A stretch of DNA of 44,456 nt from Desulfobulbaceae bacterium (GTDB taxonomy: Bacteria; Desulfobacterota; Desulfobulbia; Desulfobulbales; Desulfobulbaceae), in the NCBI GenBank assembly GCA_024763055.1, contig JANTGH010000013.1, positions 1-44,456 on the forward strand, written 5' to 3'. The notes beneath the pieces were generated by a model. It had not been told where the DNA came from. It saw only the letters and a program-made list of their open reading frames with translations, and ran no database searches. The stretch's first letter is position 1. Each line of letters opens with the position of its first letter. The position numbers and the translations under genes are program-made. Below are positions 13,026 to 38,121 of this stretch, in pieces.

Positions 13026-15804
13026 GTTCGTCCTCTTTTGTTCTCTGTTCATTTTCCGTCCGGGGCAGGGTTACCGGCAGACGCAGGGTAAAGATGGATC
13101 CCCTGCCCGGCACACTGTTCACCAGGACTTCACCGGCCAGGATTTCCCGCATGATCTTGTCGGTTAAATACAGGCCCAGGCCGGTGCCTGGATAGGTCGC
13201 ATCACCAGGGGGATGCAACCTGACAAAGGGCTTGAAAAGCGTTGCGATATCAGACTCCGTTATGCCGATGCCGGTGTCATGCACCTGAATTTCCAGTATC
13301 TGTTCCTGTTCTTTTTCCCCTGTGACAACACCGATGATGGTAATTTTTCCCTGGTTGGTAAACTTGATTGCGTTGGAGAGCAGATTGACCAGACATTGCA
13401 GGAGCCGTCGCCGGTCGGTATGCATCGTGAGGGCGGGAATTTCCTCGGTTATGGCAATCGACCTGTTCCCGATGTCTACCTGCGCGATTTTTCTCGCCTC
13501 GACGACCAGTTCCTGCAGGACAAAGGAAGTGGGCATCGACTCCATCATGCCGGCCTCAACCTTGGTGATATCGATCACGTCATTGATCAGTGCCAGCAGG
13601 TACTTACCTGAATTGAGAATAATGGCCAGATTTTCCTTTTGTTCCGCATTGACCGGACCCAGCCACTCTTCCTTGAGAATACTGGAAAACCCTATAATCG
13701 AATTAAGTGGAGTCCGTAATTCATGGCTCATGCTGGCGATAAAAAGGGATTTAAGCCGATCTATCTCCTTGAGCCTGAAATTGGCGGCTTCAAGCTCCCT
13801 GGTGCGCTCGGCAACCAGTTCTTCAAGATGAAGACGATGCTGTTCCAGTTCAGATATAACGCTGTCAAGGTCTACCCTGGTGCGTAACGATCCAATTCCA
13901 AAGGAGAGACTTTCGGTCATATTCACGAGCATCTCCACCTCTTTATCATCGAATCCGCCCGGATCACCGACGTAAATGGACAGGGCGCCGAAGACATGAT
14001 GATCCAGAATCAACGGCAGGGCAATACTTGCGGTATAGCCCCGTTTCAGGGCTTCGTCCCGCCAGGGGGCAAATTTAGGGTCGGTTGCGATATTCCGGCA
14101 AAGGACCGGCTTGCCCGTTCGAATGGCCGTTCCGGTCGGACCTTTACCCCGATCCCTGTTCTCCCAGGTAATTTCAAGGGTGTCCAGGTATCCCTCTTCA
14201 AAGCCCGCCTGGGCCATCGGCCGGACCGTTTTTCCCTCATTTTTTTCGGCATACCCTATCCAGGAAAACCGATATCCCTGCGAGGTAATGAGGGTCCGGC
14301 ATATATCATCAAGGAGCTGCTGCTCCCGGACGGCATTGGCAATGATCTCGTTGCAGCGGTTTATTGTGCGCAAAAAACGATTTGCTCTCAAGAGTTGTGC
14401 CTGGGCCTGTTTGTATCTGCCGATTTCACGTGCTGAAACAATAATTCTCCTGCTGCCGACAATAACAGCCAACCGCATATTCACCTCAGTCCAGAATACC
14501 CGGCCGGTCGCATCTTTGGACTGCCATTCAAAGATCTGCAGCTCTCCGGCAGCGGCTTTTCGCATCCAGTCCCGGGCAGCTTCCTGGGTATAGGGAGGTT
14601 TCCCGGAGCTCAGATCCACTACATCCGCCGACAATATCTCTTGCCGGGGCATTTTGAACATCTCGCAGGTTTTACGGTTAACATCTAAAATCACACCGGT
14701 TTCAGCATCGTGAATAAAAATAGCATCGTTAACGGCATTAAAGATCGTTCGAAACCGTTCCTCATTTTCCTGGAGAATTCTCTCGACCTTGCGGCGCTCG
14801 GCAAGCTCCCGACGCAACTCTTCGGTCTTGCGCATGACCTGTCGGCGCAGGGTCCGGGACCAGAGCAGAAAACCCGCAACCAGAAACAAAACAATCCCAA
14901 CCGCAACCGCCAGGAAGATAAACACTGTGCGATGGGAAATACCAACGACTCTTTCCGGACCAAGCCAGCGACGGTTGATTTCGTTTTTCTGCTCCTCGCT
15001 GATGGAGGCCAGGGCCTTATCGAGTATGGAGGCCAGCAGGGGCCAGTCGCCTCTGACTCCAATGCTATCCGTGTATTTTTTCGACTCATAGACGGCGGCA
15101 AACCTGAGATTGGCCAGCTGGTATTTATTTTTCAGGTAATAGCCGGCTCCGAGAAAGATAAGAGCGGCATCGGCCCGGCCGATGGCGACATCGTTAAGGG
15201 CCGCAAGCATGGAATCAACAAAAACCGGGATGATGGTCGGATATTTTGCAAGAAGCGGTCTGACATACTGGTAGCCCTGCACCAAGGCAACCCGCCGGCC
15301 GGCAAGATCATCCGGCCCGGAGATATCCCTGATCTCCTTCCGGGTCATTATCATCATTGATTTGAAGATATAGGGCCGGGTAAAGACAAACCACTGTTCG
15401 CGCTCCGGTCGATGTCCCATGGTGGCCACCACATCAACCTCACGACGTTTGGCCGCCGCAAAGAGATCTTTCCAGAGCGGCTTATCAAGCGGGACAAAGG
15501 TGATGCCGGTCCGGTCGGCCAGAATTTTGAAAATATCCACGGCCAGCCCTTCATACCGGCCGGTATCGCTGAGGAAACTGTACGGCGGAAAATAACCGTC
15601 AAAGGCTACCCGAACGGTTCGGTGACCGGTAAGCCAGGATCGTTCATCAGGTGTCAGAGGTATGGCGACCCGTCCGTCTTCAGCGACTACGGCCGGGCTG
15701 ATGTCTTTGTGAGCGGTTGCCGCCCGGGACGTGAACATGCCGCAAACGAACAGGACGAGTATAATGGCCGGACAGTAGAAAAGAATACGTTGCGGCCTGC
15801 TCAT
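13000..15804 (-). CDS. SBP_bac_3-PAS-GAF sensor histidine kinase
   Basis: I favour the ATG at 15804: GGAG lies 7 bases upstream and a signal peptide follows at once (ILFYCPAIILVLFVCGMF). GTG at 15858 is an alternative. The 934-residue product has a periplasmic solute-binding domain family 3 (about 30-280; VRVAFDGYFPPYSF, YEGLAVDIFKIL), as in BvgS/EvgS-type sensors that bind amino acids or other small ligands. A membrane helix lies near 285-310. A PAS domain (FRTIFNAVNDAIF), a GAF domain (LLDDICRTLITSQGYRFSWIG start) and a kinase core with H-box SMSHELRTPLN follow. The ATPase domain ends at the C-terminus; no receiver is attached, so phosphate must pass to the next two proteins. A promoter-like site lies at 15921-15948. 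Confidence 0.9.
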   Translation of the reverse strand: MSRPQRILFYCPAIILVLFVCGMFTSRAATAHKDISPAVVAEDGRVAIPLTPDERSWLTGHRTVRVAFDGYFPPYSFLSDTGRYEGLAVDIFKILADRTGITFVPLDKPLWKDLFAAAKRREVDVVATMGHRPEREQWFVFTRPYIFKSMMIMTRKEIRDISGPDDLAGRRVALVQGYQYVRPLLAKYPTIIPVFVDSMLAALNDVAIGRADAALIFLGAGYYLKNKYQLANLRFAAVYESKKYTDSIGVRGDWPLLASILDKALASISEEQKNEINRRWLGPERVVGISHRTVFIFLAVAVGIVLFLVAGFLLWSRTLRRQVMRKTEELRRELAERRKVERILQENEERFRTIFNAVNDAIFIHDAETGVILDVNRKTCEMFKMPRQEILSADVVDLSSGKPPYTQEAARDWMRKAAAGELQIFEWQSKDATGRVFWTEVNMRLAVIVGSRRIIVSAREIGRYKQAQAQLLRANRFLRTINRCNEIIANAVREQQLLDDICRTLITSQGYRFSWIGYAEKNEGKTVRPMAQAGFEEGYLDTLEITWENRDRGKGPTGTAIRTGKPVLCRNIATDPKFAPWRDEALKRGYTASIALPLILDHHVFGALSIYVGDPGGFDDKEVEMLVNMTESLSFGIGSLRTRVDLDSVISELEQHRLHLEELVAERTRELEAANFRLKEIDRLKSLFIASMSHELRTPLNSIIGFSSILKEEWLGPVNAEQKENLAIILNSGKYLLALINDVIDITKVEAGMMESMPTSFVLQELVVEARKIAQVDIGNRSIAITEEIPALTMHTDRRRLLQCLVNLLSNAIKFTNQGKITIIGVVTGEKEQEQILEIQVHDTGIGITESDIATLFKPFVRLHPPGDATYPGTGLGLYLTDKIMREILAGEVLVNSVPGRGSIFTLRLPVTLPRTENEQRTKEDEHGKKSPGH

Positions 15805-15920
15805 GGCCGGCTCCAATCCGTTTCTACCTGTTGATGCAACCTGTTGATTTTTTTTCACTGGTATCCTGCGTGATTCCCGACCACCCAACGGCTTGCCGTT
15901 GGCAACGATCTCATGTCAAA

Positions 15921-22887: not shown

Positions 22888-23076
22888 ATGGATGTCAATA
22901 TGGATACAATAGCGTCCCAGGGAATAGCACTGAACAAAGCTCAGGCCGGAGCAGATATCCTGCAGAAAACGCTAAAAAAAACAGAAGAGGCAAGAAACAG
23001 CAATCAAAGCGTGGAACGCCCGGAAAGCACCCGGGTAATGAAAGGAGAAGGCAGAGTCGTCAATACCTACGCGTAG
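22888..23076 (+). CDS. YjfB-like small protein (putative motility protein family)
   Basis: This 62-residue protein is preceded by an excellent Shine-Dalgarno (AGGGAGG, 7-8 bases before the ATG). The pattern MDVNMDTIASQG, then ALNKAQAGADILQKTLKKTEE, resembles the YjfB family, short helical proteins annotated as putative motility proteins. The C-terminal third is charged and probably disordered. It lies 160 bp after the hybrid kinase on the same strand. No flagellar genes are in view. The family link rests on a short helical match and is tentative; that it is a real gene is more certain. Confidence 0.6.
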   Translation: MDVNMDTIASQGIALNKAQAGADILQKTLKKTEEARNSNQSVERPESTRVMKGEGRVVNTYA

Positions 23077-23549
23077 ACGTTTTCTTTTGATAACAACGAA
23101 AATTGAATTTCTCTTTCGAAACTAAAAAACTACACCTGCATATATATCATCAGAGATAATTACCCGTCGCACACACCCAAACGATCTATGATCTGTTGCT
23201 CTCTCACCCGGCAGTGTAGATCGGCAGGAATCCGGCAAACATTCACCACCTTTTTCGCACTCCATCATTCCATGCCTTTCCTCTTGTTCTCCATATCCTT
23301 GCCGAAACAACTGCAACTGCGTGAAACAGCCAAAATATTTTTGAATCCCTCCAGCGTAACAGTTCTCATCTTATGAAAAAAACTTTGACTTTCAATTTAC
23401 TGTTTTGATACTATTTACTTATAATCAATATGTTAAACTCTACCAAGCCCAACATCAATCAATTGTTGGAGTCTCTCATTTCCTCGATAAAATAACCGCT
23501 CTTTTTTGAATGGCATCTCTTTCCATCACTTAAACCGAGGAGGCGTACA
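23077..23549. other. AT-rich leader region without a gene
   Basis: These 473 bases between the YjfB-like gene and the Tat-exported PLP enzyme contain no believable ORF. A promoter-like site is at 23385-23414. The leader from there to the ATG would be about 130 nt and holds a weak inverted repeat, CCAACA (23449-23454) with TGTTGG (23464-23469). Confidence 0.5.
23385..23414 (+). promoter_or_regulatory. Sigma-70-like promoter for the PLP enzyme operon
   Basis: TTGACT (23385-23390) and TACTAT (23409-23414) are 18 bases apart within a strongly AT-rich stretch. The start codon follows at 23550, giving a leader of about 130 nt. Confidence 0.45.
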
Positions 23550-24953
23550 ATGCAACATGAACCGGAAGACACCAAAGCAGCACTGCTTGAACGACGCCGT
23601 TTTCTCAAGCTGTTCGGAGTCGCTGCAGCCGGTGGCGCGGCCGCTGCCCTTTCTCCTGACTTCGCGGCCGCATCTGTAGAGGCTGGTACCGATTTTCCCC
23701 AGGCCGACTGGAAGACGAGACATAGCGGGTGGCGAGGTATCAGGCGGGCCTTTATCCTGGATCCGAAAACAACATACATGAATATCGGCACCACCGGCTC
23801 CACGCCCCGACATGTTCTTGCCCGATACAACCATTATAACAAAGTGGTTGCGAAATACCCCTGGGACATGCATGGAGAATGGGGGCACTGGCCTTATATC
23901 AGCGGACTTGTGGAACGTATAGCGCCGCAGTTCGGCGCCGACAATCACGAGATAATTCTCAGCAGAAACACCACCGACGGCATGTGTTCCATTCTTGAGG
24001 GATTAAACCTGCAGCCTGGTGATGAAGTGCTGTATACTCACCACGAACATGTTGCAGGTACATCGCCTTTGCATGTACTCAAGCAGCGCTCAGGTGTTAC
24101 CCTGACCCAGGTGGAGATACCGGTTTTTGATGCTACGGAACAGGGATATGTTGATGCCTTTGCCGGTGCGGTCAGCCCGGCGACCCGTCTGATTGTCTTT
24201 TCCCATATCACCTACAAAACCGGAGCATGTCTGCCCGCCAAACGAATCTGCAAAGAAGTGGCTATTCCAAACGGCATCCCCACCCTGATCGACGGAGCCC
24301 ACACCATCGGTATGCTCAACCTGGATCTGCATGAGATTGACTGTGACTTTTATGCCGGTTCCGGCCATAAATGGCAATGTGGGCCCGGGGCCACCGGTAT
24401 TCTGTATATCCGTGACGACCTCACCAGGTTGCGCGGTTACTGGTCCGACCGGGAAAATGTTTTCTGGCCGATCAACAGTTCCCTGGCGGAGTACCCCTTT
24501 CTCGGCCTCCAGTATCAGATGCAGTACATCGGCAACGATAATTATCCCGCCAAACGGGCGTTGGCCGATGTCTGCGACATGTGGGACAGGATCGGTCGGG
24601 ACCGCATTGAAGGTCATGTGCTGGCCCTGAGCCATTATTGCAAGCGATTGATTCGCAAGGCCTTTGGCAGCTCGGTGGTCATTTATTCACCGGACACACC
24701 GGAACTTTCCAGCGGCATCAGCTCCTTTAACCCTTTTGCCGACCGAACCGACCTGACCACGCTCAACACATTTCGTGACCGTCTGCGGGAAGAATACGGC
24801 TTCATCATTCGCACCACTGACTTTCACGTCTTTCTTAACGACCAGGACAAGGAACACGCCCTGCGCGTTTCCACCCACCTGTTTCACAGCAGAAGAGATG
24901 TCCGGGAGCTGGTGGCCGCCATGTATGAATTGTTTACCGATATGAACACCTAA
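23550..24953 (+). CDS. Tat-exported class V aminotransferase-like PLP enzyme
   Basis: This 467-residue protein starts with a twin-arginine signal (ERRRFLKLFG at 14-23, then an Ala-rich hydrophobic stretch to about 42), so it should fold with cofactor in the cytoplasm and be exported to the periplasm. The rest is a fold-type I PLP enzyme of class V, closest in style to isopenicillin-N epimerase-like proteins (COG0520). It shows SRNTTDGM, THHEHVAG, the cofactor-binding Asp in LIDGAHTIGM and the Schiff-base Lys274 in GSGHKWQCGPG. Reactions in this class include racemisation, transamination and C-S or C-N lysis; the actual one is unknown. GAGGAGG lies just before the ATG. It heads an apparent operon with a periplasmic binding protein and a GGDEF-EAL sensor. 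Confidence 0.9.
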   Translation: MQHEPEDTKAALLERRRFLKLFGVAAAGGAAAALSPDFAAASVEAGTDFPQADWKTRHSGWRGIRRAFILDPKTTYMNIGTTGSTPRHVLARYNHYNKVVAKYPWDMHGEWGHWPYISGLVERIAPQFGADNHEIILSRNTTDGMCSILEGLNLQPGDEVLYTHHEHVAGTSPLHVLKQRSGVTLTQVEIPVFDATEQGYVDAFAGAVSPATRLIVFSHITYKTGACLPAKRICKEVAIPNGIPTLIDGAHTIGMLNLDLHEIDCDFYAGSGHKWQCGPGATGILYIRDDLTRLRGYWSDRENVFWPINSSLAEYPFLGLQYQMQYIGNDNYPAKRALADVCDMWDRIGRDRIEGHVLALSHYCKRLIRKAFGSSVVIYSPDTPELSSGISSFNPFADRTDLTTLNTFRDRLREEYGFIIRTTDFHVFLNDQDKEHALRVSTHLFHSRRDVRELVAAMYELFTDMNT

Positions 24954-25018
24954 ATAAACCATAACACCCGGAAAGCTCAATGGTTCCCGGATCTTTCAAT
25001 CATTAAAGGACTAAGACG

Positions 25019-25915
25019 ATGGCACACCACTTTTTCTTTCGACTCCTGTTGCTTTTTCTCATCTTTGCAATGCTCGGCTCGACAGGCTGGACACATGATC
25101 TTGCCGATATCAAAAAGGCTGGTGTGCTGCGGCATCTTGCCATTCCGTATGCCAACTTTTACACCGGCAGGGAAGACGGGCTTGATGTGGAAATGATAAA
25201 GGGTTTTGCCGAGGCGCTCGGTGTCCGATATAAACTTATTGAAACAAGCTGGAAGGATGTCTTTGGTGATCTTACCGGACATAATGCCAGGCGTGAAGGA
25301 AAAAACGCAAAACTATTGGACAAGGTCCCTGTTCGCGGTGATCTGGTGGCCAACGGCATGACTATTCTTGGCTGGCGGACCCAGGTTGTCAACTTTTCCG
25401 AGCCCACCTTTCCCTCCGGTGTCTGGCTCATCGCCCGGGCCGATTCCCCGCTTACCCCGATTACTCCAACCGGCAAGCTGAAAGAGGATATCAAGCAGGT
25501 CAAAACACAACTCCACAACCACGGTGTGCTTGCCCTGGCCAACACCTGCCTTGACCCCGGGCTCTATAATATGAACGCAACCGGAGCGGATATCAGGTTG
25601 CAGCCCAAAGAACGCAAGCTCAACGAGATGGTTCCGGCAATATTGAACAATGACGCGGACAGCACCCTGCTTGATGTGCCGGATGCACTGATTGCCCTTG
25701 AACGCTGGCCCGGCCAGATTAAGGTGATCGGGCCGATTTCCGATGCCCAGCTTATGGGTGTTGCCTTCCGCAAGGACACACCGAAATTACGTGAGGCTTT
25801 TAACACCTATTTCAAGCGTATTCGTACCGACGGAACCTATAACAGGCTGGTAAAGAAATATTATCCGGCTGTCTTTCGCTACTCTGCCGATTTTTTCACG
25901 CAACCTGCCCAATAA
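25019..25915 (+). CDS. Periplasmic solute-binding protein family 3
   Basis: This 298-residue protein begins with a signal peptide (RLLLLFLIFAMLGSTGW). The mature part is a family 3 binding fold of the kind that takes polar amino acids: GLDVEMIKGFAEALGV, then GMTILGWRTQVVNFSEP with Arg120 in the place that normally grips the ligand carboxylate, and LLDVPDALIAL with Asp219 in the place that normally holds the amino group. No permease or ATPase gene follows, so it probably serves sensing rather than uptake. It lies 65 bp after the PLP enzyme and 12 bp before the GGDEF-EAL gene. An insertion around 84-108 (GHNARREGKNAKLLDKVPV) is unusual for the family. Confidence 0.9.
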   Translation: MAHHFFFRLLLLFLIFAMLGSTGWTHDLADIKKAGVLRHLAIPYANFYTGREDGLDVEMIKGFAEALGVRYKLIETSWKDVFGDLTGHNARREGKNAKLLDKVPVRGDLVANGMTILGWRTQVVNFSEPTFPSGVWLIARADSPLTPITPTGKLKEDIKQVKTQLHNHGVLALANTCLDPGLYNMNATGADIRLQPKERKLNEMVPAILNNDADSTLLDVPDALIALERWPGQIKVIGPISDAQLMGVAFRKDTPKLREAFNTYFKRIRTDGTYNRLVKKYYPAVFRYSADFFTQPAQ

Positions 25916-25927
25916 CTGAAATTAACG

Positions 25928-28900
25928 ATGCATCAGTCAACTTTCCTTACCCGTTCAAATGCAATCCGTCTTGGCGGGTTGCTGCTCGGTGGATATATTT
26001 CCCTGTTGATCGGGCTGGTGTATCTTGGGCAGATCCATCTTCGCCAATCGCTGTTTGAGCAGGCAAAGTTAACCATTGAAAAACAGGCGTCGGCAGTCAA
26101 CTATTTTCTTAGTGAACAACAAGATGAGATTAAAGAATTCACGAAAAATCCAGCCCTGAATAACTTTTTTGCCAACCGGGCCATGGGCATGTCTATGAAG
26201 TACGGCCTGAGAGCCAGCCTTCTGACAGTTCAGAATGAACTGAAACGGCTGCTCAACCGCAAAAAACTTCTTGGCCAGCCCGTGTACACCGCTATCAGTT
26301 TTGTTGACCGGGACGGATCAATCCTGGTCTCCACAAAAGAAACGGAAAAACAGAAAGTCCGCTCATTTCACCTGGATGGAGATTCCGCTCCAGGCGTTTC
26401 ATTGCGTATTTTTGACAACAAAAAATTGGGCTACGATGCTTACTACGTTGCCACCATTGACTATCACAACCAGGTAACGGGACTGATTATCGCTGAAGTA
26501 AACCTGGCAAAGGTTGTACTTCCCCTGCTGCAGCACTCTGAAAACAACCGGGTCGACAACACCCTGATGCTTATTGCCCCCCACGACAAGATACTGGTCT
26601 CAACAGCTCCTGTTTCAGATCCAAACTCCTTCTCTACACGACAGCAGACGACTCTTTCCGTGCCCCTTGATGATTCCGGCTACATCCTCAAAGGTATAAT
26701 CAGGAATAATCAACAAATGCTGCTGACTTCTCCCTGGTTTCTTGCGGCCATTGCCCTACTCTCCCTGCCCGTAGTCGGTGGACTTTTTCTGTTGCTGCGC
26801 CTTAATAATAACCACCTACTCCTGCAGGCAAAATATCTTGCCTCCCAACAACAGGAACAGGAGTTGCGTTATTTTCGCCGGCTTCTTGATCTCAGCACCG
26901 ACCTGATTGCCGTCATTGACCCGTCAACCAGTCGTTATCTTGATGTCAATCAGACGATGTGCACATTCTTTTCCCTTGATCGCGAGCAACTCCTGAAAAA
27001 AAAATTTATCGACCATTCAGATACCTACCGGACAATAGAACAATGGCGTCTATTCCTTAAACAGATAAGGAAAAATGAAAGAATTACCGATGAGTACAAC
27101 GGTCAGCATCCGGACGGAAGTCCTTTTTTCATTGAAATAAATGCCCATTACGCCCAACTGGATGACAGAGAAGCCATTGTCGCTATATTTCGAGATATCT
27201 CTGAAAGAAAACGGTCGGAACAGGTGATACAGCAGGCGAACCAGCGAGTCAACGCCGTATTAGCCGGCATTGACGCAATAGTTTATGTAATGGACATGGA
27301 AACGCATACAATCCTGTATGCAAACACGGCCGCCACCACACTCTATGGGGACCTGGTGGGCAAAACATGCTGGCAACATCTTCATTCCGGTCAAACAGGC
27401 CCCTGCTCTTTCTGCCCTAACGACAAGTTACTTGGAGACGATGGCAAACCGGCCGAGACCTATATCTGGGAATTTCAACACGGTGAAAACAATCTGTGGT
27501 TTCACAGCGCCGACTGTGCAATTCCATGGGACGACGGCAGATATGTTCATCTTCAGGTTGCAACGGATATCACGGCGAGAATCCAAAATGAGCAGGCCCT
27601 GCAGGATGCCCATAGCCAACTTGAAGCCCTGGCCTATTATGACCCGCTCACCAGACTGGCCAACAGAAGATTATTTATCGACCGCCTGCAACATGCCCTG
27701 CACAAGGCTGATCGCATCAATAGCGGGCTGGCAATCTGTTACCTGGATCTTGATGAATTCAAACAAATCAACGATACCTACGGGCATGAGGCCGGAGATG
27801 ACCTGCTGGTTCAGGTTGGCGAACGACTACTCAACAATCTGCGCGGGGAGGACACAGTGGCCCGCTGGGGCGGTGACGAATTTGCGCTGCTTATCACTAA
27901 TCAGAAAGATGAAGAACAATGTGTTGAAACCCTATCTCGCCTGTTAGACTGCCTGACAACTCCTTATGAAATCAGAAGCACTCTCTTCCAGGTAACAACA
28001 AGTGTCGGGGTGACTCTCTATCCAAAAGATAATGGTGATCCGGAGACGCTGCTGCGTCATGCCGACCAAGCCATGTATCTTGCCAAGCAGAAGGGCCGGA
28101 ACTGTTATCATTTCTTTGATCCGGAACAGGATCGTCGAATAAATATGCGACTGGAACAGATCAACTGTATCGGCAAGGCCATAAAGCAGGACGAGTTACG
28201 GTTATTTTACCAGCCCAAGATTGACATGGCCAGAGGCAGGGTTATGGGGGCAGAGGCCCTGGTTCGCTGGCAGCATCCTGAAGAGGGGCTACTTCCTCCG
28301 GTACGTTTTCTGCCCCTGATCGAAGGGCACAGACTCCAATTATCCCTGGACTGGTGGGTGTTGGACAAGGCAATGCAGCAGGCATCCTTCTGGCAGACTA
28401 ACGGAGAAGAACTGTCAATCAGTGTCAATATTGCGGCACAAACCATCCAGCAGCCAGGTTTTGCCGATCGGCTGATTGAGCTGCTTGCCGACTATGGTAT
28501 TGACGGCGGCCTGATAGAACTGGAAATCCTCGAAAGCGGAATAATCGATGAACTTGACACCATTTCTTCCGTTATCCGGCAATGTGTCGAAACCGGGATT
28601 TCATTTGCCCTGGACGACTACGGAACAGGCTTTTCTTCCCTGACCCACATCCGCCGCCTACCGGTGCAGACCCTGAAAATCGATCAGTCCTTTGTCAGGG
28701 AAATGCTGGACAACCGGGATGATTTCCACATTGTCGAAGGCGTGATCGGACTTGCCAGGGCATTTGAGCTTGAGGTTATTGCCGAAGGTGTTGAAACTAC
28801 GAAATTAGGTACCCAGCTTCTTAAACTGGGTTGTAATTACGCCCAGGGCTATTGTATCGCAAAACCCATGCCCAGCAGTGAAATAACCGACTGGAGAAAA

Positions 28901-28954
28901 CAGTACAAGGTTCCGGAAGAATGGCTGAAGGCCGCAGCAGAAAAAACCGTATAA
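25928..28954 (+). CDS. Cache-PAS-PAS-GGDEF-EAL cyclic di-GMP turnover protein
   Basis: This 1008-residue membrane protein has helices near 15-35 and 265-290 enclosing a Cache-like periplasmic domain. PAS1 (about 320-430) and PAS2 (about 435-555) follow; PAS2 has Cys481, Cys493 and Cys496 (GKTCWQHL, GPCSFCPND). The GGDEF domain has an intact WGGDEF (648-652) and inhibitory site RGED (639-642). It keeps Asp in GHEAGDD, the residue replaced by Ser in cGAMP-making Hypr enzymes, so cyclic di-GMP is the expected product. The EAL domain has AEALVRW (EAL 776-778), DDYGTGFSSL and EVIAEGVET, so hydrolysis is also possible. Both domains look catalytically complete. The 12-bp gap to the binding-protein gene implies co-transcription and suggests that protein may deliver its ligand here. 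Confidence 0.93.
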   Translation: MHQSTFLTRSNAIRLGGLLLGGYISLLIGLVYLGQIHLRQSLFEQAKLTIEKQASAVNYFLSEQQDEIKEFTKNPALNNFFANRAMGMSMKYGLRASLLTVQNELKRLLNRKKLLGQPVYTAISFVDRDGSILVSTKETEKQKVRSFHLDGDSAPGVSLRIFDNKKLGYDAYYVATIDYHNQVTGLIIAEVNLAKVVLPLLQHSENNRVDNTLMLIAPHDKILVSTAPVSDPNSFSTRQQTTLSVPLDDSGYILKGIIRNNQQMLLTSPWFLAAIALLSLPVVGGLFLLLRLNNNHLLLQAKYLASQQQEQELRYFRRLLDLSTDLIAVIDPSTSRYLDVNQTMCTFFSLDREQLLKKKFIDHSDTYRTIEQWRLFLKQIRKNERITDEYNGQHPDGSPFFIEINAHYAQLDDREAIVAIFRDISERKRSEQVIQQANQRVNAVLAGIDAIVYVMDMETHTILYANTAATTLYGDLVGKTCWQHLHSGQTGPCSFCPNDKLLGDDGKPAETYIWEFQHGENNLWFHSADCAIPWDDGRYVHLQVATDITARIQNEQALQDAHSQLEALAYYDPLTRLANRRLFIDRLQHALHKADRINSGLAICYLDLDEFKQINDTYGHEAGDDLLVQVGERLLNNLRGEDTVARWGGDEFALLITNQKDEEQCVETLSRLLDCLTTPYEIRSTLFQVTTSVGVTLYPKDNGDPETLLRHADQAMYLAKQKGRNCYHFFDPEQDRRINMRLEQINCIGKAIKQDELRLFYQPKIDMARGRVMGAEALVRWQHPEEGLLPPVRFLPLIEGHRLQLSLDWWVLDKAMQQASFWQTNGEELSISVNIAAQTIQQPGFADRLIELLADYGIDGGLIELEILESGIIDELDTISSVIRQCVETGISFALDDYGTGFSSLTHIRRLPVQTLKIDQSFVREMLDNRDDFHIVEGVIGLARAFELEVIAEGVETTKLGTQLLKLGCNYAQGYCIAKPMPSSEITDWRKQYKVPEEWLKAAAEKTV

Positions 28955-29122: not shown

Positions 29123-32100
29123 TCAAGAAAGGGCACGCCGACGGTCCGGCGCTCTTCCCGGTTGGCCGTAACCACCACCGCCCGGAGTAAGAATACGTAT
29201 CCGGTCACCGGGCTGCAGGGTTATCTCGTTCTTCCCTCCCAGATTCAAAATTTTTCCGTTGCGCCGAACACAGAGATTCTCGCCTCGTGCTCCGTGTTCG
29301 CCCCCCTCAAGGCCATACGGAGCAAAGACACGGCGTTCGGAGAGAATAGCCACCTGCAGCGGCACAAGAAATTCCACCTCCCGGATCAGACCATCGCCGC
29401 CGGTGAACAGTCCTCTGCCGCCGGATTTTTTACGGATGGAGAATTCCCGCAGAAGCACGGGGTACCGCCGCTCAAGAATCTCGGGATCGGTGATCCGGGT
29501 GTTGGTCATATGGGTATGAACACCGGACTGGCCATGCCATCCCGGCCCGGCCCCGGCGCCGCCGCCGATGGTTTCATAATAACCAAACCGATCATTGCCG
29601 AAGGTGAAATTGTTCATACATCCCTGGGACGCCGCCGCCACCCCGAAGGCCTTGAGAATCACATCGACCACCCGTTGCGAGGTCAAGACATTGCCGCCGA
29701 CAACGGCCGCCGATGGGGATGGATCAAGCAGGCATCCCCTGGGGATATGCAGCTGGATGGGCAGAAGACAGCCGTAATTGAGCGGAATGTCCTTTTGCAC
29801 CAGGCAGCGCAGGCAGTAGAGGATAGCCGATTGGGTCACGGCCCGGGGCGCATTCAAGTTGCCCCATATCTCCGGGCCGGTACCGCTGAAATCAAAGACG
29901 GCGCTGCCGTCCCTGCGGTCGATGGTGATTGCCAGCTTAATCGGACTGCCGTCATCCAGGCTGTCCCCGGCCGTAAGTCTTTCCAACCCGTGGCGATTAC
30001 CCGGCGGCGCCGGCCCTTTCAGGCTTTCCCGCACGGCTGCTTCGGCGGCCGCCTGCACATGGCCCATGTAGGCCTGGACCACCGGCAGACCGTACATCTC
30101 CACCATTTCAAGAATCAGGTCGATTCCCTTACGGTTGGCCGCCACCTGGGCCTTAAGATCGGAGATATTATCGGAAAGCCGCCGGGTGCCGCTGATCCGT
30201 TGTTTGCCGTCAGCGCTCCCCGCCTGCAGCAGATCAGCAATTCCCTGTTCCTGAAAAACACCGCTTGCGACAAGCTTAAACGAGAGGATAGCCGCTCCTT
30301 CCTCGATAAGTCGATGGGAATGCGGCGGCATGGAACCGGGCGAGATACCACCGACATCGGCATGATGACCGCGGCTTGCCACCCAGAAAATAATTTTCCC
30401 GGCGGAAAACACCGGCGTCATAACCGTAATATCCGGAAGATGCGAACCACCTGCGGCCGGATGATTGGACAGCAGGACATCACCGGGCCCGATATCCGGG
30501 CAACGTCTGATCTGCTCGCGCACCGCCTCGCTCATGGCCCCGAGATGCACCGGAACATGGGGGGCATTGGCCACCAGGTTGCCTGTGGGATCAAACAGGG
30601 CGCAGGAAAAGTCAAGCCGCTCCTTGATATTGGTGGAGATGGCCGTTTTCTGCAGCATGCGGCCCATCTGTTCGGCAATGGACATGAACAGGTTGGAAAA
30701 AATTGAGAGCTGCACGGGATTGACCGCCCGATCAATCCGGCGGCCCTGATTGCGGCCAACGGTAATCTCCACGTCACCGAACTCGGTGATCTCCGCCCTG
30801 CAGTCAGGCTCCACCACAATTGTTGCCGTCTCCTGAATAATAATAGCCGGTCCGCTCACCCGATGACCCGCCGCCAGTTTTTCCATCAGGTAAAGATCCG
30901 TCTCCTGCCAACCCGTGCTGAAGTAACAGGAAACCACCCGTTCTTTTTCCGGCGGTCCGTCGGCAGCGGGAATCCTGGGCCGGACAGAACCGGTCCCCCT
31001 GCCGACGGCGCGAACCCGGTAATCATCAACGAGTATCTCCCGCTCTTCAAGGACAAAGCCGAACTCCCGCCGATAACGGGCAACAAAGGACTCGGTAAAA
31101 CTGCGCTCATCCGATTGCTCGATCATCAGGGCGGTATCCGTTCCCCGGTAACGCAGGTTGAGATAACGACGGCAGAATATCTTTTTCGGTTCCGTGCCCT
31201 GGGCGGCCAGTTCAGATTCGGCCTCCCGCTGCAGCTCGTCAAGCCGCCTTTGAATCGGTATCATTACCTCGGCCGAGAGAACCAGGGCCGCCGGTTCCTG
31301 TTTTTCCACCACCGTATCGGCAAGGCCGATGCCGCAGGCCGACAGGATGCCGGAAAACCGGTGAATAAAAATGGTGGAAATTCCCAGGATACGGGCAATA
31401 CTGCAGGCATGCTGGGAACCGGCCCCGCCGAAGGTGGCCAGCACATGTTCCTTGATATCAAAGCCGCGCATCACCGACACCTCGCGGATGGGCCGCACCA
31501 TAACCTCATTGGCCACCTCCAGAAATCCAAGGGCGGTCTCCTCAACACTCAGCGGCGGCCGGTCATCGTCCGCATAAAAACGATTAATGCGCGCGGTCAA
31601 CTTTTCCATGGATTTACGGGCGCCCTGCACGTCAAGGGGCTGATCTTCATCCGGGCCGAAGATATGGGGAAAATAGCCGGCCTGCAGCCGCCCAAGGACC
31701 AAATTGGCATCGGTAATGGCCAGATGGCCGTTTTTCCGGTAACAGACCGGACCGGGATGAGCGCCTGCGGACTCCGGCCCGACCTTGAACATGCCGTTTT
31801 CAAAAAAAATACGGGAACCGCCGCCTGCGGCCACAGTCCTGATATCAAGCTGGGGCGCCTGAATGCGCACACCTGCTGTCCTGGATTCAAAGGTCAGCTC
31901 CAACTCACCGCCGTAGCGGGACACATCGGTGGAAGTACCGCCCATGTCAAATCCGATCACCGGACGCCCCGTCTTTTTGTTAAAGGTTGTCAAACCATAC
32001 CCGACCACGCCGCCCGCCGGTCCGGAGAGAATGGCCCGGCTGCCGGTAAAGTCATCGGCCGGGGCCAGGCCGCCGTCCGATTGCATAAAGAGCAGATTGG

Positions 32101-32935
32101 TACCGGTCAGCCCATCGACAAAACCCTGCTTAAATCCTGAAAGATATTTTCGAATATGGGGCGTCAGGTAGGCATCAACCATAGTCGTATCGCCCCGGGG
32201 CACCATCTTGACCACGGGCATGACCCGGGAGGAAAGGGAAACCTGGGTAAATCCCATCTCCCGTGCCAGCCTGCCTACCATTTCCTCATGCCCGGGCAGG
32301 CCATAGGCATGGAGAAAGACAATGGCAAGGCCGGTGATTCCCTGATCAAGAAGGGGGTGTAACTGCGCCCGCACCCGGTCGGGTTCAGGAGGCCTCATAA
32401 TGACAAACCGCTCACCGGTGCGGCCGCTGACGACCTCAAGGCCGCTCTCATCTTCATCCGCCTGGAGCAGACGAACCCGCTCCTCCACCTCGATCACCGT
32501 TTCATAGAGCAGGTCCGGTTTTTCGATCTTCAGATCAAAGAGATCAGGTCGCTTCTGGGAGCCGATACGAAGAATATCACCGAATCCCCGGGTGGTGACC
32601 AGGGCGGTACGGGCGCCTTTACGTTCCAGCAGGGCATTGGTGGCCACGGTGGTGCCCATGCGGATCCACTCGATCCGGGAACCATCGACCAGGCCGTCTT
32701 CTTCCGCTATCCCATGGGCGGCCAGGATCCGTCGGATCCCTTCCCGAGGCGCATCCGCATAGTTGGCCGGATCCTCGGACAGGAGTTTGACCACGGTAAA
32801 TCCAGGATCACCCGGCACCTCGGCATAAACATCGGTGAAGGTACCGCCGCGATCAATGGAAAACCGAAAATTTTTTTCTTTTTTTTCTTTTCTCAGCATC
32901 TCTAACATAAAGAGTAAATACCAATCCCCCTCCAT
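29123..32935 (-). CDS. 5-oxoprolinase/N-methylhydantoinase-type A+B fusion
   Basis: This product of up to 1270 residues joins hydantoinase A ([17 protein letters not shown] at the front, [16 protein letters not shown] in the middle) and hydantoinase B (from about residue 740: [39 protein letters not shown]). One-piece fusions of this size are typical of ATP-dependent 5-oxoprolinases, which open the 5-oxoproline ring to glutamate; relatives act on N-methylhydantoin. The start is uncertain: ATGs at 32935, 32908 and 32899 all lack an ideal ribosome site, while the conserved part begins soon after. It is on the same strand as the creatininase-like and TRAP genes upstream, separated by a PilZ-VanY pair. 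The enzyme class is firm, the substrate is not. Confidence 0.9.
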
Positions 32936-33059
32936 CTCGAACCGGTCAAGGATGGATTGTGCCTGCAGCGCAGGCTATTCCAGCCAACGTAAAGGCAAAA
33001 TTGATTTTTTCCTTAATGCCTGGTATCTTATTGCCGATACATACTTAAAGCACAAAGTA

Positions 33060-33188
33060 TTTATCCGAAAATCCCAGTAGCAGGAGCTTGCCCATGCCGG
33101 AGTCAGGGATTTTCATCCTTTGTTGTGGCCGGCCAACCCGGAGTCTTCACTACGTTCCGCTTACCTGGTCCAGCCATGCTGGTTTATC
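33060..33188 (-). repeat. Interspersed structured repeat, copy C
   Basis: On the minus strand this reads GATAAACCAGCATGGCTGG, GGAACGTAGTGAAGACTCCG, GGTTGGCCGGCCACAAC and ends GGGATTTTCGGATAAA. It matches copy B almost base for base in the first two thirds. It lies just upstream of the PilZ gene, whose apparent longer reading frame runs through it and is not coding. Confidence 0.8.
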
Positions 33189-33219
33189 AGTTACCATTTT
33201 ACTCAATGGACGGAGAAAA

Positions 33220-33603
33220 ATGAACGCCACAGCTCAAGAACGAAGATCATCGGCTCGCATCCCCGCAGACACATTGCATCAGATTTCTTTTGATGATGCC
33301 GCTTCAATTGACGTCAAAGTAGCGCCGACCGAGGGTACCTATGAACAGACCGCCTCTTTGCGGGATATCCACAGCAGCGGCATGTGCTTTCTGTTGACCG
33401 AGCACATTTTAAAAGAAGATGATATCATCCATATCGATACCATGCTCGGCGATTTCGCCTTTGAAAGCGATGCCATTGTCCGCTGGACCATGGGCAGCTA
33501 TGTCGGAGTCGAATTTTTAGACAGCCGTGCCCGCAATGCCGCCTTACTTGCCGAACTGTACACGGAAAAACTGTTACGCTATCTTGATGAACCGGAACAG
33601 TAA
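33220..33603 (+). CDS. PilZ-like domain protein
   Basis: The ATG at 33220 has GGAG five bases upstream; the longer open frame crosses the repeat and is rejected. The 127-residue protein has RRSSARIPADTL near the N-terminus (an RxxxR-type motif) and LRDIHSSGMCFLL where PilZ domains have D/N-x-S-x-x-G; the Ser is one place late, so the fit is imperfect. AIVRWTMGSYVGVEFLD then LLAELYTEKLLRYL closely parallels the protein at 39703. PilZ domains are cyclic di-GMP receptors; binding here is inferred. The last bases overlap the VanY-like gene by 17 bp, implying co-translation. Confidence 0.72.
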   Translation: MNATAQERRSSARIPADTLHQISFDDAASIDVKVAPTEGTYEQTASLRDIHSSGMCFLLTEHILKEDDIIHIDTMLGDFAFESDAIVRWTMGSYVGVEFLDSRARNAALLAELYTEKLLRYLDEPEQ

Positions 33604-34198
33604 TCCCCTTGTCCTCGTCTTTGTCTTCCTGATGGCGACCCTGTCTCTGTCGGGATCGCTTTTTGCCCGGAATCCGCCCCCCATTACTGCGGAAACGGTC
33701 ACCATTGACGGCATCAAACACCCGGTTCCCCCACCTTGGCGGGGACATAAGATGGAAGGTCCTTCCTGGCTCTCGGTCCCGCCGCTGGTCCCTGTTCCCC
33801 GGAATCTTGTCGAAAATAACGGAGAACTTTATCTTCTGCCTGCGGCCCGAGATGCTTTTGTCGCCATGGCCGGGGCGGCAAAAATGGACGGCATCGATCT
33901 CGTCATTGATTCGGCCTATCGAAGCGCCCATTACCAGAGAAAAGTGTACCATAAGCAGATGGAAGAGGGAAAAACCTTTGCCGAGGTGGCCCGTTATGTT
34001 GCTCCACCCGGCTATTCCGAACATATGCTTGGTCTGGCTGTGGATTTTTCTCCCAGCGACTGGCGTTTTGTAAAAACTCCCGCCTATGATTGGCTGAAAC
34101 AGCATGCCGACCAATTCGGTTTTCGGGAAACCTACCCGGAATCCAGGCCCGATCACCAGCCATGGGAGCCTTCCCACTGGCGCTACATCGGCAACTGA
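33587..34198 (+). CDS. VanY-type D-alanyl-D-alanine carboxypeptidase
   Basis: The ATG at 33587 lies inside the end of the PilZ gene and opens with a signal peptide or anchor (PLVLVFVFLMATLSLSGSLF). The 203-residue protein has the M15B peptidase motifs: SAYRS (109-113), the zinc ligands His146 and Asp153 in GYSEHMLGLAVDF, and catalytic Glu194 with zinc ligand His197 in PWEPSHWRYIG. It should trim the terminal D-alanine from peptidoglycan stem peptides outside the cytoplasmic membrane. Co-translation with a PilZ-like protein suggests wall trimming may be tied to cyclic di-GMP. No vancomycin-resistance genes are nearby, so a housekeeping role is likely. Confidence 0.9.
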   Translation: MNRNSNPLVLVFVFLMATLSLSGSLFARNPPPITAETVTIDGIKHPVPPPWRGHKMEGPSWLSVPPLVPVPRNLVENNGELYLLPAARDAFVAMAGAAKMDGIDLVIDSAYRSAHYQRKVYHKQMEEGKTFAEVARYVAPPGYSEHMLGLAVDFSPSDWRFVKTPAYDWLKQHADQFGFRETYPESRPDHQPWEPSHWRYIGN

Positions 34199-34200
34199 TC

Positions 34201-34971
34201 TTAACTTCTTTCCTGCCGCATCTGCTCCAGCACCTGCACAAGCCGCCCGACCAGATGTTCATGGTAGGCCCTGCCCTTTTCCGCCGAGGCCAGACTCGGC
34301 CGACCGGTTACGGTATCCCCGCTGATATCCGCTATTTTTTTCATATCTTCCACAGTGGCCGGCACATAGCAGAGAGTATCCCGCCGGTCAGCCGGATCAA
34401 CATGATACAGCTCCCGTCCCCCGGCAGGATTGTCCCCTGCCTGCTGTAAATCGATCAGATCAGGGAAGCAGTGCAGCATGTGGGAAATCTCGATCTCCTC
34501 GCCATGACCGATACCATCCGAAAAGCCCGCAAACTCTTTACTCATCCAGGCCGGATCAAACAGGGCCACCTTTACCTGCAACTCACGCTGCGCCCGTTCG
34601 GCAGCTATCTGCAGCCAGGGAATATTGACCACCCGGTGCCCGTTGACCACCACAAAATGAGCAAAGCCGTGGGTGGCAAGGGAACTGATGGTATCAAAGA
34701 GCAGTTCAATCAGCACCTCGGCCCGAATGGAGATTGTGCCGGGCCGTACCAGGTGATGGGGGCTCCAGCCGGTCCAGACAGGAGGGGCAACCAGCACACC
34801 ACTTTTTTCACCTGCGTCTTCGGCAAGAGCCATGGCCACATAAGTGTCCGTACCCAGCGGCGCAAAACGACCATGCTGTTCGGTACTGCCCACCGGAATG
34901 ATGAGACGATCATCGTGCTGCAAATACTCGTCGATCTGTGACCAGGTCAGTTCCTGCAGATGGATATTCAT
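34201..34971 (-). CDS. Creatininase-family amidohydrolase
   Basis: This 256-residue cytoplasmic protein has the family signature: IIPVGSTEQHG (Glu31, His33), LGTDTYVA (Asp42), FVVVNGHRVVN and GHGEEIEISHML, which together supply the dinuclear metal site. The family includes creatinine amidohydrolase and enzymes that hydrolyse other cyclic or formyl amides. AGGAG lies just before the ATG and the TRAP large permease stops 8 bp upstream, so transport and hydrolysis are one operon. Its 3' end converges on the VanY gene with only 2 bp between. Substrate is unproven; with the neighbouring 5-oxoprolinase a cyclic amide is plausible. Confidence 0.88.
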   Translation of the reverse strand: MNIHLQELTWSQIDEYLQHDDRLIIPVGSTEQHGRFAPLGTDTYVAMALAEDAGEKSGVLVAPPVWTGWSPHHLVRPGTISIRAEVLIELLFDTISSLATHGFAHFVVVNGHRVVNIPWLQIAAERAQRELQVKVALFDPAWMSKEFAGFSDGIGHGEEIEISHMLHCFPDLIDLQQAGDNPAGGRELYHVDPADRRDTLCYVPATVEDMKKIADISGDTVTGRPSLASAEKGRAYHEHLVGRLVQVLEQMRQERS

Positions 34972-34979
34972 ATACTCTC

Positions 34980-36290
34980 CTATTTGGTCGTCATCAGATG
35001 GGGCAGAAACAGGGCAATCTCCGGAAAAACCGTCAGAATCACCGTTGTCAGCAGCATGAGAAAGAAAAACGGCAGGGCGTAGCGGGCTATCCTGGTGACC
35101 GGTTCATCGGTCAACCCCTGGATAACAAAGAGATTAAACCCCACCGGCGGCGTAATCTGACTGACCTCGACCATCAGGATCAGGTAGATACCGAACCAGA
35201 TCGGATCAAAACCGGCGGCCGTAACCATGGGCAGGGCGATGGGCAGGGTCATCAGGACAATGGAAAAGCCATCCAGCAGGCAGCCAAGAAGGGTATACAC
35301 CCCGCCAAGCAGCAGCATGAGCAGATAGGGGGAAAGATGCAGATCCAGAATGGCCCCGGTCAGAGCCGCCGGAATACCGAGGAAACCCATCACCCTCGAC
35401 AGGAAGCCCGCCCCCATGACGATGAGCATAATCATGCAGTTGGTCTTGACCGCGCTTTTCAAACAGGTAAACAGTATCCTGCCGTTCATCTGCCGGTTGA
35501 TGAAGGCAAAAAGAATGGCGCCGAAGACTCCCAGGGCCGCCGCCTCGGTGGGGGTTGCCACGCCTGCATAGATGGAGCCCAGCACCAGGACGATCAACAA
35601 AAAGGTCGGAACCAGGTCTTTTATGGAGGAAAACCGTTCCGCCCAGCTGTAGCTCTCCTGCAGGCGGGGCGCGATTTCCGGATTGCGGATACCGCGATAG
35701 ATGATATAGGAGGCGTAGACGGAGGCCAGCAACAGGCCGGGCAGGATACCGGCCATGAACATCTTGCCGATGGAAACCTCGGCCATGATGGCATAGACGA
35801 TCATGATCAGAGAGGGCGGGATAAGAAAACCAAGCGTCCCGGCGCCTGCCAGCGAGCCCATGGCGATTTGACGGTCATAGCCCAGTTTATCCAGCTCGGC
35901 CAAAGTGATTCGGCCGACGGTGGCAGTGGTGGCGGCACTGGAACCGGAGACGGCGGCGAAAAGCGTACAGGAGATAATGTTCATCAACAGCAGACCGCCC
36001 GGCAAGCGGTACAGCCAGGGCACCAGGGCCTTGAACAGCTTTTCCGAGATACCGGAGCGGTACAAAATCTCGCCCATGAGAATAAACATGGGCAGGGCCA
36101 CATACTCCCACTTGCCCACCGTGGCCCAGACCGAAGAGGCCATGTTGTAGCCGGCAGGCAGGCTGCCGAACAGGGTGAGCCCGGCAAAGCCGACCATAAA
36201 CAGGGCAAAACCGACCCATACGCCGCAGGCAAGGAGAAAAAAGAGCAGACCAAAAACGGTCAAGCACATGACCAGCATGGATCCATCCAT
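34980..36290 (-). CDS. dctM: TRAP transporter large permease (DctM family)
   Basis: I set the start at ATG 36290, immediately after the small-permease stop, giving 436 residues, the usual size; the upstream extension is not membrane-like. The protein is almost wholly hydrophobic with about 12 helices. It carries family segments such as VSGSSAATTATVGRI, GTLGFLIPPSLIMIVYA, ATPTEAAALGVFGAI and VEVSQITPPVGFNLFV. It forms the sodium-driven channel of a tripartite periplasmic transporter with the small permease and binding protein encoded upstream. The substrate of TRAP systems is usually a carboxylate or sulfonate; the linked hydrolase suggests a cyclic amide derivative. Confidence 0.95.
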   Translation of the reverse strand: MDGSMLVMCLTVFGLLFFLLACGVWVGFALFMVGFAGLTLFGSLPAGYNMASSVWATVGKWEYVALPMFILMGEILYRSGISEKLFKALVPWLYRLPGGLLLMNIISCTLFAAVSGSSAATTATVGRITLAELDKLGYDRQIAMGSLAGAGTLGFLIPPSLIMIVYAIMAEVSIGKMFMAGILPGLLLASVYASYIIYRGIRNPEIAPRLQESYSWAERFSSIKDLVPTFLLIVLVLGSIYAGVATPTEAAALGVFGAILFAFINRQMNGRILFTCLKSAVKTNCMIMLIVMGAGFLSRVMGFLGIPAALTGAILDLHLSPYLLMLLLGGVYTLLGCLLDGFSIVLMTLPIALPMVTAAGFDPIWFGIYLILMVEVSQITPPVGFNLFVIQGLTDEPVTRIARYALPFFFLMLLTTVILTVFPEIALFLPHLMTTK

Positions 36291-36291
36291 C

Positions 36292-36795
36292 TCAGAGCAC
36301 CCGTTTACCGGTTCCAATGGCGAGAAAAGTTTCACAGGTGGTGGCCGCAAGCTGGAGCAGAAAACAGGTGGCGCCAAGCAGCATCAAGCCCTGGGGAATC
36401 CAGAGAACAGTATTGGTAAGAGTACCGGAGGTGGAATGATAATGCAGGGACGAACGAACCAGCAGGAAAAGGTACCACCAGAGATAGCCCATGAACGCTG
36501 TGGTCAGGGCCGTGGCAAGGGCGGTGATACTCCGGGCCAAATAATCGGGCAGCAGACCAAGCACCAGGGTGATACGGATATGCCCCCGCTCTTTGAGGCA
36601 ATAGCCGGCGCCGAGAAATGTGATGGCTGCCAGACCATAGGCCGAGTATTCATCGGCAATGAGCGTGGTCTTCTGCAGGGTATTCCAGAGGACGATCTCT
36701 ATGAGGATGAGCAGGGCCATGGCGCCTAAAACAAGCGCCGACAACCCGGCCATCAGCCTGCTGAGCCGCCCGATCATGCGGATAAAAAGGTTCAT
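36292..36795 (-). CDS. dctQ: TRAP transporter small permease (DctQ family)
   Basis: This 167-residue protein has four hydrophobic helices (about 15-35, 50-65, 88-110, 130-155) and the family segment ADEYSAYGLAAITFLGAGYCLKERGHIRI. It forms the small membrane subunit of the same TRAP transporter; its stop lies 1 bp before the large-permease ATG. No strong ribosome site is visible at the ATG. Upstream is a 327-bp gap with hairpins and a repeat copy, then the binding-protein gene, so a processed operon with the gap inside is likely. Confidence 0.92.
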   Translation of the reverse strand: MNLFIRMIGRLSRLMAGLSALVLGAMALLILIEIVLWNTLQKTTLIADEYSAYGLAAITFLGAGYCLKERGHIRITLVLGLLPDYLARSITALATALTTAFMGYLWWYLFLLVRSSLHYHSTSGTLTNTVLWIPQGLMLLGATCFLLQLAATTCETFLAIGTGKRVL

Positions 36796-36857
36796 GGATA
36801 AATCAGTATGGTGGACACCACAACAAAAAAAATAGTGTACCAGGCAGTTTACTCTTT

Positions 36858-36936
36858 ACCGCAGAGCGGTGTAACAAGAAAGAGTTGTCTTGTGGCACCG
36901 CTCTGCGGTGCCACACATCGTTCGGCGCTCTGCGCC
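36858..36936. repeat. Three hairpins with shared design
   Basis: ACCGCAGAGCGGT (36858-36870), ACCGCTCTGCGGT (36897-36909) and GGCGCTCTGCGCC (36924-36936) are each 5-bp stems with AGA or TCT loops. The first two are also inverted copies of each other, with inner arms ACAAG and CTTGT, so a single larger stem is possible. No T-tract follows. Confidence 0.7.
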
Positions 36937-36943
36937 ATTTTCA

Positions 36944-37078
36944 GATAAACCAGCATGGCTGGACCAGGTAATCCGGAACGTAGTGAAGACTCCGGATTGG
37001 CCGGCCACAACAAGCGATGAAAACACCTTGCTCCGGCATGGGCAGGCCCTGCCTCGAGGGATCTTCAGATAAACCAGC
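36944..37078 (+). repeat. Interspersed structured repeat, copy B
   Basis: This copy starts GATAAACCAGCATGGCTGG and ends with ATCTTCAGATAAACCAG, so the border sequence TTCAGATAAACCAG occurs at both ends as a direct repeat. The middle has GGAACGTAGTGAAGACTCCG, the 10-bp palindrome TGGCCGGCCA and the stem GGGCAGGCCCTGCC. Confidence 0.8.
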
Positions 37079-37122
37079 CGGCTGAAAAGCGGACGTACCT
37101 TGAGTATTGGTTGTGGACGCCT

Positions 37123-38115
37123 CTATTTACGACCGGTTTTCTTATAATATTCATCCAGGATGGCCTGGGCTTCCTTGCCCGCCTTTTTCACCCATTCGGC
37201 GCGCAGTATATCGCCCACCTTGTTCAGCTGGGCACGAAATTCCGGGCTGACCTCGGCCACGACCATGCCGTGTTCGGCAAGGGTTTTTCGGCTTTTGGCA
37301 TCCATATCCGCTGCCAGGGACCACATCTCATTTTCCATATCGGCCGCCACTTTTTTGATCTTGGCCTGAATATCGGCCGGCAGTTTATCCCAGGCTGCCT
37401 GGTTGACGTTGATCATGTTCACCGGACCAACGATATTGATGGGAGTAAAATATTTCAAAACCTCCCAGGCCTTGGCATCAACGCCGGAAACAGAAGAGGT
37501 ATACATCGAATCAAGCAGACCGGCCTTCATGGCCGGGTAGACCTCGGAAAAGGGCATCTTACGGGCTGCAATGCCGGTGGCCTTGCCGAACGCCAGGCCG
37601 GTACCGTCATAAACGCGCATCTTCAATCCCTTGAGATCGGCTACCGACGTAATCGGCCGCTGGGTATAAATACCTGAAAACGGCCAGACCGAGGTGTAGA
37701 GAGTGAACTGGTTGAATTTCTTTAATACCTTGGCATAGGTGGGTTTGGCCAGATCATAGAGAAGTCGCTGTTCTTTGGCATTGGTGGAAATAAAGGGCTG
37801 GGCGGTCAGGGCCAGGACCGGGGCATCACCTTCCACCATACCGGTGGGGATTTCGGCTATAACCAACTGTCCTTCGGCAACGGCCCGCAGCAGTTCCGGC
37901 CCCTTAAAACCAAGAGAAGCGCCGGGATGAAGGACAATCTCCAGCTCGCCGTTCGTGGCCTTTTTTACCCGATCGGCAAAACGCTGCGCGCCCTGGGAAT
38001 GAAAGTTGCCGGCAGGATAATTCAGATGCATGTCCCATTTTGTTTTGGCCAGGCCAACGGATGAAGAAGTCAAAGCAAACAACAGGCTGACGGCAAAGAT
38101 AGTCAATCGTTTCAT
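37123..38115 (-). CDS. dctP: TRAP transporter substrate-binding protein (DctP family)
   Basis: The ATG at 38115 is chosen over the one at 38121 because AAGGAG would then sit 6 bases away rather than touching the start. The 330-residue protein has a signal peptide (LTIFAVSLLFALTSSSVGLA) and DctP-type features: WDMHLNYPAGNFHSQGAQRF, GELEIVLHPGASLG, and the conserved stretch SVADLKGLKMRVYDG with its carboxylate-binding arginine. It is the periplasmic receptor of the TRAP system encoded downstream and would set its specificity. The order P-(gap)-Q-M-hydrolase is typical of catabolic TRAP operons. Confidence 0.94.
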   Translation of the reverse strand: MKRLTIFAVSLLFALTSSSVGLAKTKWDMHLNYPAGNFHSQGAQRFADRVKKATNGELEIVLHPGASLGFKGPELLRAVAEGQLVIAEIPTGMVEGDAPVLALTAQPFISTNAKEQRLLYDLAKPTYAKVLKKFNQFTLYTSVWPFSGIYTQRPITSVADLKGLKMRVYDGTGLAFGKATGIAARKMPFSEVYPAMKAGLLDSMYTSSVSGVDAKAWEVLKYFTPINIVGPVNMINVNQAAWDKLPADIQAKIKKVAADMENEMWSLAADMDAKSRKTLAEHGMVVAEVSPEFRAQLNKVGDILRAEWVKKAGKEAQAILDEYYKKTGRK

Positions 38116-38121
38116 ATTCAT

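Follow-up and report, generated by a model that had tools for sequence, protein, structure and literature searches.

We analysed a 44,456-nucleotide stretch of DNA (contig JANTGH010000013.1 of assembly GCA_024763055.1, positions 1 to 44,456; hereafter, the window) from the genome of a Desulfobulbaceae bacterium, and focus here on three adjacent genes at positions 23,550 to 28,954. Taken as a whole, these genes are very probably a ScrABC operon, working by a chain in which ScrA yields a signal, ScrB takes it up, and ScrC is switched. Such an operon, with a signal that is extracellular, is described from Vibrio parahaemolyticus (scrA VPA1513, scrB VPA1512, scrC VPA1511), and the window shares its A-B-C content and order, as well as its three kinds of protein: a class V pyridoxal 5'-phosphate (PLP) enzyme, a periplasmic binding protein, and a GGDEF-EAL protein of the membrane that has both motifs. 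The window thus holds the expected gene order, a ScrA with its catalytic lysine that falls in the clade of operon enzymes, a secreted ScrB without transport partners, and a ScrC whose active sites are intact.

According to the passages available from the V. parahaemolyticus literature, ScrA makes the S signal, ScrB binds it, and loaded ScrB meets ScrC, giving phosphodiesterase activity and favouring swarming over biofilm (PMC11315295, PMC10269520); the ScrA-made signal thereby turns ScrC from cyclic di-GMP synthesis to degradation (PMC11315295, PMC9303241). The S signal, an unknown molecule as of a 2024 paper (PMC11315295), is reportedly also detected by the chemoreceptors SscL and SscS (PMC9303241). 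The original prediction for this DNA, made from the sequence alone, had placed a periplasmic enzyme, a binding protein, and a cyclic di-GMP receptor in series and had known of no described system with this set. The proposed chain matches the published ScrABC model (PMC11315295, PMC10269520, PMC8530187), but the claim of novelty must be given up because ScrABC of V. parahaemolyticus had already been described.

The three proteins

All three genes lie on the plus strand with intergenic gaps of 65 and 12 bp in the open reading frame (ORF) read of the window, and the arrangement predicted originally was borne out by ORFs at 23550–24953, 25019–25915, and 25928–28954. The first (23550–24953) is the scrA homologue, which scores 111 bits with the Pfam model Aminotran_5 (cut-off 21.5). 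Its N-terminus, LERRRFLKLFGVAAAGG, is of the twin-arginine translocation (Tat) type, and the signal region at about codons 13–40 (23586–23669, plus strand; ERRRFLKLFGVAAAGGAAAALSPDFAA) is recognized by direct reading of the sequence, by the motif in homologues, and by the presence of TatC in the same genome. The Schiff-base residue Lys274, within GSGHKW, is kept in at least 92% of 24 aligned full-length homologues, and Arg439 lies near the C-terminus. The enzyme class, the twin-arginine signal, and the cofactor lysine had all been named correctly at the outset.

The Tat motif RRxF[LIMVFK] occurs in 37 of 39 ScrA homologues (both exceptions are truncated), including every ScrA of the 11 complete-context operon genomes described below (L238–L248). 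Because the signal is so widely retained, the S signal is probably a periplasmic product. ScrA is termed an aminotransferase in the ScrABC literature, the available passages of which do not state its site of action.

The closest solved relatives of ScrA are the cystine lyase C-DES, PvdN, and SufS-type desulfurases. PvdN is also the best NCBIfam model for ScrA (108.4 bits), and both are class V PLP enzymes of the Tat-exported, periplasmic kind, PvdN acting on pyoverdine. It is nevertheless highly improbable that ScrA is a siderophore-tailoring enzyme of the PvdN type lying by chance beside a solute-binding protein (SBP) and its GGDEF-EAL partner: the score falls far short of the equivalog cut-off of 650 bits, on which membership was rejected; siderophore genes were not seen among the window ORFs scanned; and enzymes of this subfamily again sit next to scrB and scrC in other genomes (L004, L238–L248).

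The second gene (25019–25915, plus strand) is the scrB homologue and encodes a secreted family-3 SBP (SBP_bac_3, 66.7 bits). Across 66 aligned ScrB relatives Arg120 is kept in 100% and Asp219 in 96%, and His39, Tyr44, Phe47, Trp119, Arg120, and Cys177 are invariant. An ATP-binding cassette (ABC) permease was not found among the window ORFs scanned, in which the sole transporter genes seen are components of a tripartite ATP-independent periplasmic (TRAP) system at 34983–38121 with a different binding protein. The earlier picture of a family-3 binding protein that retains its Arg and Asp and has no permease therefore holds. A second ScrB-type gene, 47% identical, is present in the same genome at a contig end (G000:C51:196-1074).

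The pairing of a periplasmic binding protein with a GGDEF-EAL membrane receptor that it controls is also the logic of the NspS-MbaA system of Vibrio cholerae (PMC8967002, PMC5646818). A polyamine sensor of this type is, however, scarcely credible here, given that ScrB matches only SBP_bac_3 and amino-acid binding models and no polyamine-binding model, that it keeps the alpha-amino-acid Arg and Asp, and that the abstracts on NspS-MbaA describe no exported PLP enzyme; membership was rejected on the family of the binding protein. LuxP-LuxQ, a quorum-sensing system that likewise combines a binding protein with a receptor, resembles ScrBC in logic only, having another class of binding protein, a histidine-kinase output, and autoinducer-2 (AI-2) as its signal.

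The third gene (25928–28954, plus strand) is the scrC homologue. It encodes a membrane protein in which a sensor region bearing GMSMKYGL is enclosed by two transmembrane segments and followed by two PAS domains, GGDEF, and EAL. Both sets of catalytic motifs are intact, including the GGDEF motif, the inhibitory RxxD site, and those EAL motifs that were checked. The predicted PAS, GGDEF, and EAL stretches score far above their cut-offs, whereas the Cache domain of the same prediction is less secure, its dCache_1 match reaching 26 bits against a Pfam cut-off of 45. Since the sensor also belongs to a conserved family with the motif GMSxxYGL, we refer to it as Cache-like.

By analogy with V. parahaemolyticus, from which the S signal, its binding by ScrB, and the switch between the two activities of ScrC are carried over, ScrA would be exported folded by Tat and would make a small, probably amino-acid-like S signal in the periplasm. 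ScrB would bind this signal by the usual family-3 Arg/Asp grip, and the loaded protein would dock on ScrC at its Cache-like domain in the periplasm. Docking would switch ScrC from diguanylate cyclase to phosphodiesterase, such that cyclic di-GMP falls as signal accumulates, and the PAS pair may add a cytoplasmic input. We infer from homology that the system functions in this way in its Desulfobulbaceae host; where the signal is made, and that it is amino-acid-like, are likewise inferred.

Occurrence and orthology of the operon

A Chromatiaceae metagenome-assembled genome (L004) carries all three genes, arranged as in the window and on one strand, with ScrA 73% and ScrB 70% identical to those of the window, and was the only match in a pattern-based scan of genome contigs. 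When V. campbellii ScrA was used as a query in the order of genome G789, matches were obtained in 12 of 146 genomes. In all 11 genomes with complete context (L238–L248), which belong to another order, A-B-C lies on one strand; identities to the window are 53–59% for ScrA, 50–56% for ScrB, and 22–27% for the sensor. Ten of these ScrC proteins have the EAL glutamate at residue 544–553, the V. parahaemolyticus residue being given as E554 (PMC11315295). V. campbellii LJC015 (L096:6140-10159), our proxy for VPA1511–VPA1513, has scrA, scrB, and a GGDEF-EAL gene, again ordered A-B-C (ScrA ~60% and ScrB 55% identity), but as a decayed copy, with an interrupted scrA joined to a Spondin_N gene and a GGDEF-EAL gene missing its Cache sensor part.

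In a tree of 39 homologues, ScrA of the window and of L004 group with the operon ScrAs in a starred clade of 17 rows (95/94), and operon ScrAs cluster far more than shuffled labels do. The window's operon stands alone among those relatives of its host that were searched: a ScrA orthologue was found in none of 56, the best match having 33% identity over half of the protein, and horizontal acquisition is therefore likely. A tblastn search of the sensor against plasmids gave no match; nor did a search for ScrA in phages, and the single viral-contig match covered 14 residues and was disregarded. No paper came up when the literature was searched for scrABC in combination with Shewanella.

Several observations weigh against the identification as ScrABC. 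Orthology to V. parahaemolyticus scrABC is read through stand-ins (L096, L238–L248, and L004). The window's ScrC, at 1008 aa, is longer than the short ScrC relatives (763–782 aa), has two PAS domains that these proteins lack, and shares the 22–27% sensor identity noted above with the short group, so that it may be regulated differently. For ScrB and the sensor, AlphaFold models built from two-row alignments had a predicted local distance difference test (pLDDT) value of 38 and were unusable for the pocket or for docking.

ScrB and its receptor as a module

In a sample of 395 genomes of the window's phylum, 22 had a member of the ScrB subfamily, as did 48 of 210 genomes in the order of L004. 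We examined 76 ScrB loci, 74 of which had room downstream, and in 69 of these 74 a receptor with a sensor matching the window's lies directly 3' of the SBP, its motif typically [AD]LGMSxxYGL. The original prediction had proposed looking for the three families together in other genomes; this pairing, L004, and the 11 of 11 genomes L238–L248 strongly support it, and the pairing and the shared gene order rule out a chance adjacency of the three genes.

A GGDEF domain is present in 22 of the 66 alignable ScrB-receptor pairs and absent from 44, some of which are cut by contig ends. Those of the non-GGDEF receptors that were compared with Pfam proved to be histidine kinases, often of hybrid type, with L091 showing PAS domains only. 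Distances among ScrB proteins and among sensors are correlated (r = 0.787 over 66 pairs; null maximum 0.176, from shuffles that ignore shared ancestry), and the correlation persists between pairs with different outputs (r = 0.703). Common descent contributes to this correlation. A contact between ScrB and the Cache domain of ScrC, which is asserted in the passages available from the ScrABC literature, would fit the conserved pairing and the co-divergence. As judged from these comparisons, ScrB with its Cache receptor is a widespread module whose outputs can be swapped and are mostly histidine kinases. At L083 (6273-10620) the order is SBP, receptor, SBP, with two ScrB-type proteins flanking one histidine-kinase receptor, possibly providing two ligands for it.

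The enzyme is less regularly linked. A class V enzyme occurs within ~3.2 kb in 10 of the 76 loci, in three arrangements: 5' in the operon (window, L004, L096, L152), 3' on the same strand (L144), or convergent (L147, L153, L154, L216, L226). In many genomes scrB and the enzyme gene are not adjacent; among the 210 genomes of L004's order, 24 of the 27 that are positive for ScrA also have ScrB (Fisher p = 2.8e-15, ignoring kinship). On two Bradyrhizobium plasmids (L097:5678-11656, L098:5684-11665) and in L138, the class V enzyme is replaced by a D-cysteine-desulfhydrase-like PLP enzyme of fold II with an RR leader of the Tat type, in a set that also includes a VTT-domain membrane protein, a ScrB-type SBP, and a Cache-GGDEF-EAL receptor (cut by the contig end in L138). 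The nearest models for this enzyme are D-cysteine desulfhydrase and cysteate sulfo-lyase, and its sole relative in the 210 genomes is a copy adjoining scrB. At L160:1800-3473 and L161:9714-11387 a gene for a methyl-accepting chemotaxis protein lies convergent to the ScrB-receptor pair, in the place that the PLP enzyme takes in other genomes.

These patterns bear on whether the enzyme supplies the ligand or removes it. ScrA might act in the periplasm to clear or modify an amino acid from the environment, in which case ScrB-ScrC would be a nutrient-amino-acid sensor and the enzyme a ligand-removing brake. Most ScrB-receptor pairs found have no linked PLP enzyme, and their ligand must therefore often come from elsewhere; moreover, ScrA is nearest to lyase- and desulfurase-type class V enzymes and the Bradyrhizobium enzyme to D-cysteine desulfhydrase and cysteate sulfo-lyase, both families that degrade amino acids. 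We nonetheless consider a brake unlikely, as V. parahaemolyticus ScrA is reported, in the passages available, to produce the signal that switches ScrC (PMC11315295, PMC9303241). Where the original prediction left the enzyme to "make or destroy" a modified amino acid, homology, and homology only, thus favours production, in keeping with ScrABC.

Promoter and neighbouring genes

An overlapping cluster of sigma-70-like promoter matches, identified by consensus, lies 5' of scrA at 23385–23434 (plus strand), the best site (23396–23425) matching at 10 of 12 positions. The promoter-like site noted originally is thus present, but 14 such sites occur in the region where 6.9 are expected, and it lends weak support to a promoter common to scrA, scrB, and scrC. 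Just 5' of the operon is a short 62-codon ORF (22888–23076, plus strand) with no Pfam match. Adjoining the operon on the minus strand, 29123–38121 encodes a hydantoinase A/B fusion, a creatininase-family enzyme, and the TRAP transporter (DctP, DctQ, DctM), which together look like a cluster for uptake and hydrolysis of a cyclic amide. A second binding-protein-driven sensor in the window (13000–15888, minus strand) is a histidine kinase that carries PAS and GAF domains and, fused at its N-terminus, an SBP_bac_3 domain.

Implications

The operon kind itself being already known, the remaining interest lies in the modular pairing of ScrB with its receptor, the Tat leader of ScrA, and the exchange of ScrA for an unrelated PLP enzyme, all of which go beyond the descriptions of ScrABC in the literature passages available. 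ScrB-type receptors reach far beyond vibrios, mostly in front of histidine kinases. An operon outside the known hosts with an apparently exported enzyme helps to narrow the identity of the S signal, which is constrained by a likely periplasmic enzyme, an alpha-amino-acid grip in ScrB, and a D-cysteine-desulfhydrase-like substitute in Bradyrhizobium plasmids. We tentatively suggest, as a possibility somewhat short of an even chance, that ScrB and its Cache receptor form a widespread module for amino-acid-like signals with swappable cyclic di-GMP and phosphorelay outputs, for which unrelated PLP folds have supplied Tat-exported periplasmic enzymes on two or more occasions. If this is true, the S signal would be made in the periplasm from an amino acid, possibly one containing sulfur, and would not be a metabolite secreted from the cytoplasm.
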